Part shown: one piece after another, positions 13,823 to 17,171 of the stretch
How positions within the stretch are numbered: position 1 is the first letter of the stretch
Layout of the letters: the number at the start of each line of letters is the position of its first letter
Made by a program: the position numbers and the translations under genes
DNA from: Bdellovibrionales bacterium CG10_big_fil_rev_8_21_14_0_10_45_34
GTDB taxonomy: Bacteria; Bdellovibrionota; Bdellovibrionia; Bdellovibrionales; 1-14-0-10-45-34
Reading direction: 5' to 3'
NCBI GenBank assembly: GCA_002778785.1
Contig: PEZS01000001.1
Coordinates: 415,688-467,142 of the forward strand
Length of the DNA stretch: 51,455 nucleotides
Notes under the pieces: model-generated
Databases searched by the model: none
The model's input: the letters and a program-made list of their open reading frames with translations, nothing else
What the model was told of the DNA's origin: nothing

Positions 13823-14473
13823 CTACTTGGCCCCTTGAATTTTTTCTCGGTTAGCGAGGATAAAGTTGAGAGTGCTTACGCTGGCTTCGTGGATATCGTC
13901 GACAACATCTTGGGCCAAAGAGCTAAACCAACCAAATAAAATAAGAAGTGGAATGGCTACAAGCAGACCAAAAGCAGTCGCATTCATCGCTTCAGAGATC
14001 GCGGCACTTAGAAATGCTGCCTTTTCCGCCATGGCCTTGGTTGCCACCGACTTAAAGGCGAGAATCATACCACTCACAGTACCTAGTAGTCCGAGAAGAG
14101 TGGCTGTGTTCGAAAAAAGTGATAGAAGCGGTATGCGTCTTTCAATTCTTGGAATTTCTCTCAAAGCAACAGCATCCATGGCTGTTTGTATCTCTTCTTC
14201 CGATTTTCCGTTCATAACAGCGACAAGGCCGGCTCGGACTATATTTGATATCGGGCTTCGATTTTGCGAAGTCAATGCGATCGCTTTCTCTATGTTGCCC
14301 TGAAGAATGAAGGAGTTGACGTGGTTTAAGAGTTCATCTTTTTTGACGTTGAGAGCCGACGACAAAACGCGATATCTCTCAAAAGCAATGGCAAATCCGA
14401 AAGCGGAAGTTGCCAAAATAAACCACATGACGAGTCCGCCTTCTTCAAAATGTGCAGCCATTGTGCCGAGCAT
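13823..14473 (-). CDS. MotA/TolQ/ExbB-family proton channel protein (AglR-like)
   Basis: This 216-residue protein has three membrane segments: near residues 14-32 (GLVMWFILATSAFGFAIAF), near 118-138 (TLLGLLGTVSGMILAF) and near 165-185 (AFGLLVAIPLLILFGWF). The TolQ-type signature LLGTVSGMI is intact. Together with the two ExbD-like proteins it should form the proton-driven motor in the inner membrane. GGGAGGG lies six bases upstream of the ATG. Unlike the following genes it is separated from the upstream FHA gene by 650 bases, so the motor trio plus queG probably has its own promoter in that gap. Confidence 0.88.
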   Translation of the reverse strand: MLGTMAAHFEEGGLVMWFILATSAFGFAIAFERYRVLSSALNVKKDELLNHVNSFILQGNIEKAIALTSQNRSPISNIVRAGLVAVMNGKSEEEIQTAMDAVALREIPRIERRIPLLSLFSNTATLLGLLGTVSGMILAFKSVATKAMAEKAAFLSAAISEAMNATAFGLLVAIPLLILFGWFSSLAQDVVDDIHEASVSTLNFILANREKIQGAK

Positions 14474-14739
14474 GAGTAACCCTCCCTAATATCTTATTCT
14501 AGCGGTGCAGTTCGCTCCGAGTGAAGCCGTCCTTTCTTTACCAGTCCTAGGTAGGTGCCTCGACCAAGTACCTGCGGCAGCCCTCCTCAAATAAAGGCAT
14601 TGTCTTAGCAGTTATTTCTACTTGGGTTCCTATTCATCTCCTTAGTCGTCTGGCAGCTCGCTTGCCGGAAAGTTTAAAGTAAGCGATGAGGTTTTGACGA
14701 GAGCAAAAAAAACCGCTTCTCAAAGTGCCGACTGCCTTT

Positions 14740-14779
14740 TTCGTATGAACAGACTATCTAAAGCCTCTGTTCATACGAA
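14740..14779. repeat. 13-bp perfect inverted repeat
   Basis: TTCGTATGAACAG (14740-14752) and CTGTTCATACGAA (14767-14779) are exact reverse complements separated by 14 bases. Neither side has a good T tract directly after it. It could be an operator for a dimeric regulator, a recombination site, or a transcript-end hairpin. Confidence 0.7.
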
Positions 14780-14899
14780 CGAGTGAAACATAATATTTCT
14801 TTGAAAATAATATATTCTGACTTTTTGTCTCTTTATTTAGCTTGCGCCTTATAAAATGCTCAATCCATGATAAAATGATGAAGCTGCAAAATTGATGAT

Positions 14900-15047
14900 T
14901 ATGAAGTGTAGGCACCTTTTACTGGTCGGTCTTCTTTAGTGCTACCGACTAGCGGTTTCAATAAGAAAGACATTTTGCCCGTCTTATCGGGCAGACCTTT
15001 GATGGATATTTCTTCCAACCCCAGCAAGGTAGCGTGCTGGGGTTTTT
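14900..15047 (+). ncRNA. Candidate structured small RNA, plus strand
   Basis: Three consecutive stem-loops are seen. The first pairs CTGGTCGGT with ACCGACTAG (14922-14930/14944-14952, nine pairs with one wobble). The second pairs TGCCCG with CGGGCA (14976-14993). The third pairs AACCCCAGCA with TGCTGGGGTT (15017-15044) and is followed by a T tract, giving a textbook intrinsic terminator. A TATAAA at 14850-14855, with TTGTCT 19 bases upstream, could be the promoter. No downstream plus-strand gene exists that it could lead into, so a stand-alone RNA is more likely than a riboswitch. The 5' end is a guess. Confidence 0.5.
15017..15047 (+). terminator. Intrinsic terminator of the candidate small RNA
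   Basis: A 10-base-pair perfect stem (AACCCCAGCA/TGCTGGGGTT) with an 8-base loop runs directly into five T on the plus strand. On the minus strand the hairpin is followed by GGAAGAAAT, so it is not a good terminator for the FHA gene. Confidence 0.75.
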
Positions 15048-15122
15048 ATCAGTATTGAAGGGAAAACCCTTTTTTGGGAGAGCGGAAAGGTCAAGGTCTT
15101 TAAGGCAGCGGAGCAATTAAAT

Positions 15123-17171
15123 CTAGAGGCGCCCGAAAGGGAACCCAATATTAGGAGTCGTGGGCTGACCGTTTTTCGCTGTAGGAAACTTCATCTTAGC
15201 AAAAATTCCCATTACGCAGCCGTTTAGGCTATCTGCACCACTGATATCTGATTTTTTGACACGGGTAGATTTCACATTGCCCTCTGGTGAAATCTCCCAT
15301 TCGTACTCAATTCTGCCAGCCAAATCAGGGTTCGAAAGCAATGACCTTTCATAACAGCCTTGCACTTCGCCAAGGTACTTTTTTACAACCGCCATCACTT
15401 GAGCCCGTGTTAACCCTTCAGATGCTCCGATTGAGACAAGTTTAGGATTCCCGACAACGACGCCTGCGACAGCTCTCTGACCAGCCTTTCCGGAAAGACC
15501 TTGCATGCCATACCCAGCGCCTGAGCCGACGCCCAAACCTTTTGTTTTAACACCCGCCAAACCTCCCGAAGGAAGTTTGCCACCAGAGCTTTTCAGGTTG
15601 CTAATCATCCCCGACGTATTTATCGACGGTGCGGATGCGCCTCCTGCGTTCGGATTTGGGTTAATAGAAACACTTACAGCATCTGTCGGTTTTGTCGAGA
15701 TAGCCCCAAGTGCCGCGAGAGCACCCACTTTGGTCACATCGACGGCCGGCGCTTCGACCACTCTTTGTGGCAGACTCTTAGCGGGTTGATTTACTTTCTC
15801 GAGCGGCTTTGAAGGTTTAATCACGACTTTCTTAGGAGATCGTTGAACTTTCTTTACAATTTCCTTAGGTTTCGGCTTTGGTATTTCTTTTTTTACAACT
15901 GGTGCAGGAGTCGGTGTGGGTGTAGGTGTTGGAATAGCCGGCGGGGGAGGGGCAGGAGGCTTTTCTACAAGAAGTCTAGCAAATCGATCGGGCATCCCAT
16001 CAATTTTTGGAGCATTATGATCAGGAACATTCATTACAAGCATCATCGTTAAGAAAAAATGAAATAGCCCTGATACAAACGACGATTTTCGAAATTCTTC
16101 GTCGGGCTCCATAAATATTTTCTTACCGATTTGCTTAGGGGCGGGAGCATAACGAAAGCAAATTCTAATGTCATTTTTAATCTTAAGAGTGCACAGGTCA
16201 TCGGGATTCAACTTATAAAAATGCCCATGTGAGCGTGCGGTTAGCATTTTTGCACTCAACAAATCAGCCATAGACATCTTGGTGCCAGCTCTTGTCACTT
16301 CAACGTCAGCACCTTTTGGAACAAAACAAATCGTTTCCCTACTTGAAAACTTAGCAAGGTCGATGCTTTGCTTAATAGTGGGAAGCCTTAGGTTCGCCTC
16401 CAGCGAATTACCAACTTTTACTTTCTCACCAACATTGTATTGCTGAATGTCGTAGACTTGATCTTTCCAAATTACGTAACTTTCGAGAACTCTGCGGCCC
16501 ATCGGAAGAGCAAGCGAACCTTCTCGAGGACTTTCATAAAATGATAGGCCATCAGCCATTACTGGTTTGGAGCGGCGCTTGTCACGAGGCTTTTTGAGAT
16601 TTTTTCTTGATACGGATGAAGGAGAAGTTGGCGTTCTGTTTGGAACCGTAGCCCCTAGAGTGGGCATTGTCATGTAACTCAACTCATCACTCCGTCGCTG
16701 ATCGGTGGTGTTTTCTGATGCGGCGGACATCTTTGCCGGAGAAGAGTTAAGAATTGTAGGAGCATTAGAAATAGCTGTGGGTGAACTTGCGACAGTGTCA
16801 GAGTGAGGGGCGGCTTTTGTCTCTAAGACTTTGGTTTTTTCTTCGGCGGGACGGTGATAGACAGAGCAAATGCGCACATTTCCTGCCGCAAACTCCAGCT
16901 CATCAGGAAGGATGCATTCGTTGATTCTCTTTCCGCCTACGAAGAGACCATTGCTACTGTTGAGATCCTTAAGTGTGAGATTGTTTGACCTATCGATGTT
17001 GATCTCTAAGTGACGTCTCGATAGAGTATCGAGGTGAGGAAGGCTCACTTCACATGAAGAATGTCTTCCTAAAAATATAGGAACTTCTTCGAAAAAATAA
17101 CTTTTATAAGCACCATCTGCTGCGATTATTTGCAGTTCGAGTTGGTACGGTAGTCTCTTTTTATCACTCAC
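15123..17171 (-). CDS. FHA-domain gliding motility protein with AgmX/PglI C-terminal domain (GltG/AgnA-like)
   Basis: The protein has 682 residues. The N-terminus (about 30-90) is a canonical FHA phosphothreonine-binding domain: FLGRHSSCEVSL, LSRRHLEI, LKDLNSSNGLFVGG. A low-complexity linker and a second folded region follow, then one membrane helix (about 365-383, FHFFLTMMLVMN). Next come a periplasmic Pro/Lys stretch (PTPTPTPTPAP, KPKPKE) like TonB and a C-terminal AgmX/PglI domain with the paired cysteines VQGCYERSLL and LNGCVMGIF. This is the architecture of the cytoplasm-to-periplasm linker of Glt-type gliding machines. It is encoded between the TPR genes and the motor genes on the same strand. 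Confidence 0.85.
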   Translation of the reverse strand: MSDKKRLPYQLELQIIAADGAYKSYFFEEVPIFLGRHSSCEVSLPHLDTLSRRHLEINIDRSNNLTLKDLNSSNGLFVGGKRINECILPDELEFAAGNVRICSVYHRPAEEKTKVLETKAAPHSDTVASSPTAISNAPTILNSSPAKMSAASENTTDQRRSDELSYMTMPTLGATVPNRTPTSPSSVSRKNLKKPRDKRRSKPVMADGLSFYESPREGSLALPMGRRVLESYVIWKDQVYDIQQYNVGEKVKVGNSLEANLRLPTIKQSIDLAKFSSRETICFVPKGADVEVTRAGTKMSMADLLSAKMLTARSHGHFYKLNPDDLCTLKIKNDIRICFRYAPAPKQIGKKIFMEPDEEFRKSSFVSGLFHFFLTMMLVMNVPDHNAPKIDGMPDRFARLLVEKPPAPPPPAIPTPTPTPTPAPVVKKEIPKPKPKEIVKKVQRSPKKVVIKPSKPLEKVNQPAKSLPQRVVEAPAVDVTKVGALAALGAISTKPTDAVSVSINPNPNAGGASAPSINTSGMISNLKSSGGKLPSGGLAGVKTKGLGVGSGAGYGMQGLSGKAGQRAVAGVVVGNPKLVSIGASEGLTRAQVMAVVKKYLGEVQGCYERSLLSNPDLAGRIEYEWEISPEGNVKSTRVKKSDISGADSLNGCVMGIFAKMKFPTAKNGQPTTPNIGFPFGRL

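Follow-up and report, generated by a model that had tools for sequence, protein, structure and literature searches.

A candidate lineage-specific small RNA in the enlarged gltG-aglR spacer of a Bdellovibrionales bacterium

Introduction

Small RNAs are known from the Bdellovibrio-related lineage and most of them are unexplained. It was reported for Bdellovibrio bacteriovorus that APsRNA1-7, which span 98-655 nt, have no homologues outside this species, and that merRNA is not conserved outside Bdellovibrio (PMC3627812). Moreover, a gltD/E/G and aglRQS core is known from Myxococcus and Bdellovibrio (PMC3169522), and the locus described here fits this core; by homology, "gliding cluster" appears to be a fair label for it, homology not being a proof of function.

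The locus belongs to Bdellovibrionales bacterium CG10_big_fil_rev_8_21_14_0_10_45_34, which has a genome of 3.06 Mb. It lies in a stretch of 51,455 nt (the window; contig PEZS01000001.1, positions 415,688 to 467,142), to which all coordinates given below without a locus or contig name refer. In an initial annotation an undescribed structured RNA was proposed for the spacer between the gltG-like and the aglR-like gene. Our analysis suggests, tentatively and rated just short of an even chance, that this spacer may give rise to a short, lineage-specific non-coding RNA of the plus strand, from roughly 14862 to 15048.

Genomic context and conservation

The spacer comprises 649 nt (14474..15122) and is flanked by a gltG-like gene with an FHA domain (15123..17171, minus strand; assigned by Pfam FHA, 3.3e-13, and gene-order comparison) and by an aglR-like gene of the MotA/TolQ/ExbB type (13823..14473, minus strand; Pfam MotA_ExbB, 2.1e-27). 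Two ExbD-type genes come after the aglR-like channel gene and a large TPR gene is located upstream. Both flanking genes have minus-strand orientation and the spacer contains no noteworthy plus-strand gene, confirming that the proposed element lies on the strand opposite to its flanks. A small protein as product was discarded, as none of nine reading frames gave a worthwhile Pfam match. The spacer is present as a single copy in the genome, with no repeat or mobile-element copies.

The nearest relatives used for comparison belong to other families of the same order; two GTDB contig scans for a close relative yielded other families only, and the named matches are metagenome assemblies of Bdellovibrionales or Bdellovibrionota. 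In most relatives the same junction measures 27-212 nt and contains nothing similar; the homologous gaps in which the initial annotation would have looked for covariation thus lack the element. The exceptions are two genomes of one related family, in which the junction is occupied by 2.3 kb (G019; L045 2849-5179) and 6.2 kb (G007; L046 2997-9238) of unrelated genes, and therefore this spot seems to tolerate insertions. These insertions, together with an enlarged spacer that is unique among the genomes compared, are consistent with the possibility that the hairpins described below arose by chance in unconstrained DNA and that only the promoter and leader of aglR are functional, a serious alternative that we consider unlikely.

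A search with the spacer DNA against 60 relatives, 369 genomes of the phylum, plasmids and phages returned nothing but its own copy and short chance matches, most of them AT-rich. A covariance model search had been suggested by the initial annotation as a check; the model, built from the single sequence, gave weak matches only in 99 relatives and 144 genomes of the class, the best of them being terminator look-alikes, and thus revealed no conservation. Applied around the junction at 17 loci with the neighbouring genes, the model likewise detected no convincing homologue. As a single sequence underlies the model and stricter filters were applied in the large searches, a very diverged homologue could be missed. 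With regard to a conserved structured RNA family, neither the DNA search nor the covariance model provided a homologue and hence no alignment was obtained in which compensatory changes could be sought.

Hairpins and folding

All three stem-loops of 9, 6 and 10 pairs contained in the initial annotation can be drawn at their sites, and the second and third of them proved to be robust, while the first did not. Stem 1 (14922..14952, plus strand; arms 14922-14930/14944-14952) has 9 pairs, one of them G-U, and a 13-nt loop; its ensemble probability amounts to only 0.02, because a GUCUU...AAGAC pairing competes with it. This disfavoured stem adds to the points for a chance origin of the hairpins. Stem 2 (14974..14995, plus strand; arms 14976-14981/14988-14993) has 6 pairs extendable to 8, with probabilities of 0.66 to 1.0. 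Stem 3 (15017..15047, plus strand; arms 15017-15026/15035-15044) is formed by 10 perfect pairs closing an 8-nt loop; a TTTTT run at 15043-15047, of which the initial two T still belong to the stem, gives it the appearance of an intrinsic terminator of the plus strand. In the ensemble of 14840-15053 the majority of pairs in stems 2 and 3 reach probabilities near 1, and both stems are predicted to be stable. A second small hairpin with a U-run follows in the same orientation (about 15057-15073, plus strand), consisting of AAGGG-AAAA-CCCTT plus TTTT, with -6.4 kcal/mol for 15056-15075; the relaxed scan described below flags it as 15040-15069.

The 237-nt piece folds better than most of its shuffled versions, with z = -3.8 for the plus strand and z = -3.5 for the minus strand. 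Upon removal of the last hairpin these values change to -2.4 (plus) and -1.3 (minus), and therefore the terminator-like stem supplies much of the folding signal. For comparison, 108 intergenic windows drawn at random from this genome gave a z of -3.07 at the 5% quantile; the region, with -3.37, ranks only in about the top 5%, and thus its stability alone is not exceptional. That about 5% of the intergenic windows fold equally well is again what a chance origin of the hairpins would lead one to expect.

In the middle of the spacer lies an inverted repeat (TTCGTATGAACAGA; 14740..14779) whose 14-bp arms match perfectly around a 12-nt loop; it lacks a U-run and is possibly an operator or a message-end hairpin. 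Furthermore, a very long perfect palindrome (GGTACCTGCTTCCCTTTGGTAGCGC...; L066, about 1830-1895) was observed a short distance upstream of the 6S RNA gene, and is the probable reason for the extreme folding score (z = -13) of the intergenic window there.

Direction of the U-tailed hairpins

The hairpin scans covered about 1.24 Mb of the genome, read as stretches, of which about 1.1 Mb are coding. The tandem U-tailed hairpins at 15017-15047 and 15057-15073 are both oriented for the plus strand and no plus-strand gene precedes them, confirming the final U tract of the initial annotation as a terminator-like plus-strand end. In the strict scan for perfect hairpins (1.24 Mb) a U-run pointing away from the adjacent gene was found only here and at C11:216836, where the hairpin overlaps the end of a short gene; these counts are built on simple ORF calls that misplace some genes, such as one encoding an HU-like protein. 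A third apparent orphan was rejected for this very reason, as it sits behind that HU-like gene, recognised by eye and missed by the simple ORF caller. Because wrong-way hairpins of this kind are rare in the 1.24 Mb scanned, transcription of some 190 nt from the plus strand is plausible, and the direction of the U-tailed hairpins is the best support for it. As a side observation, another strong plus-strand U-tailed hairpin (L129 16836-16859) overlaps the end of a short gene, which is on the minus strand and by eye resembles the antitoxin of a toxin-antitoxin system; this hairpin is either a second antisense RNA candidate or a chance case.

The relaxed scan of 1.24 Mb detected 33 U-tailed hairpins between genes, among which stem 3 ranks sixth in strength, and only one of 114 such hairpins in coding sequence (about 1.1 Mb) is stronger. 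A U-tailed hairpin of this strength rarely arises by chance and a second one in the same orientation lies next to it, both of which argue against a chance origin. In terms of the features expected of a small RNA gene, both U-tailed plus-strand hairpins are predicted intrinsic terminators on the putative RNA's own strand. The 6S RNA and the SRP RNA of the genome have a U-run at or just beyond their 3' ends. The tmRNA has no U-run directly past its 3' end in the stretch examined, and therefore not every RNA gene of this genome is marked by a U-run.

The main hairpin can also be read from the other strand, as the 3'-end structure of the gltG message, either Rho-ended or end-protecting, with the remaining spacer representing the gltG 3' UTR and the aglR promoter and leader. 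The hairpin starts about 80 nt past the gltG stop codon, the minus strand folds almost equally well, and strong non-genic hairpins gather at gene ends in this genome. Since 13 of 14 single-ended gene-end hairpins, stem 3 included, have no U-run on the expected side, hairpins of this type are common there and stem 3 may mark the 3' end of gltG. Against this, the U-runs of stem 3 and of the next hairpin are on the plus-strand side, and we regard this serious alternative as rather unlikely, to a lesser degree than a chance origin.

Comparison with known RNA families

No Rfam family matched in the region, and at a permissive threshold only chance-level matches were obtained. For the c-di-GMP-I riboswitch (RF01051) no match was found in the region, in agreement with the initial annotation, nor anywhere in the genome with an E-value limit of 0.1; for 6S RNA (RF00013) there was no match in the region. 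The element belongs to none of the known RNA families tested.

A diverged RNA of a known family, such as a c-di-GMP-binding replacement of merRNA or a second 6S RNA, would be attractive in so far as this genome has no recognisable c-di-GMP-I riboswitch, whereas 25 of 40 genomes searched, from several families, have one match over the cut-off (L087-L091 and other genomes of the order). However, even permissive Rfam matching yielded nothing beyond chance level, and the 6S RNA (contig C11), the tmRNA and the SRP RNA are located elsewhere in the genome, making this explanation very improbable. The c-di-GMP-I matches in 25 of 40 genomes contrast with the reported non-conservation of merRNA beyond Bdellovibrio (PMC3627812). 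In at least four of the five c-di-GMP-I loci examined the next large downstream reading frame runs convergently, an arrangement expected of a stand-alone RNA.

The proposed transcript and its possible action

For the preferred reading, a short plus-strand transcript (14862..15048), both ends are guessed, the start from TATAAA at 14850 and the end from the U-run. RNA polymerase would initiate within the AT-rich sequence near 14800-14860, pass through the folded region and be released at the tandem hairpins, before running antisense into the convergent gltG end. The simplest action would be cis-antisense, as the RNA would be a full-length complement of any message reading through from gltG to aglR and could in this way decouple one half of the cluster from the other; action in trans by base pairing is equally possible. 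We infer the existence of the transcript, its start site and its regulatory action.

A promoter scan yielded one weak site, compared to 0.7 expected by chance, which is not above chance. The aglR start was rejected as a target, ranking about 89th of 1108 start regions, and target prediction is therefore unspecific. When the aglR leader was taken at greater length, 4 of 300 shuffles were equally good. The 8-mer CTAGCGGT is present at both 14949-14956 and 14499-14506, and therefore the putative RNA would be complementary to the aglR leader at 14499-14506; this 8-base complementarity is weak evidence. A more elaborate proposal, in which a family-specific stand-alone regulatory RNA switches between the 14922-14952 stem and the GUCUU/AAGAC pairing ahead of the terminator and controls the aglR motor genes in a genome without recognisable merRNA, has hardly any probability.

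As a summary, the plus strand of the region folds better than most shuffles, an excess that without the last hairpin is larger than on the minus strand, while the promoter is at chance level, the folding is at about the top 5%, no search gave a homologue and the tmRNA has no U-run directly past its 3' end in the stretch examined. The element is thus best described as an unproven, possibly lineage-specific small-RNA candidate, i.e., an ordinary candidate for annotation.

Comparison with described small RNAs

APsRNA1-7, the attack-phase small RNAs of B. bacteriovorus HD100, are also intergenic and structured (PMC3627812). They were discovered via RNA-seq (PMC3627812), whereas the candidate is known from its sequence alone. 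Similarly, merRNA of strain HD100 stands alone without its own downstream gene, but contains a c-di-GMP-I riboswitch (PMC3627812), which the spacer region does not. The small RNA between bd0103 and bd0108 of B. bacteriovorus is intergenic as well, is about 260 nt in length and adjoins a type IVa pili surface-behaviour locus (PMC3818213); it was demonstrated by RNA-seq and RT-PCR at a different locus (PMC3818213), compared to a prediction from the DNA here. The suggested tie of the candidate to motility is positional only. Should it be transcribed, the Bdellovibrio-related lineage would gain a further small RNA restricted to one species, encoded inside a motor-type gene cluster.
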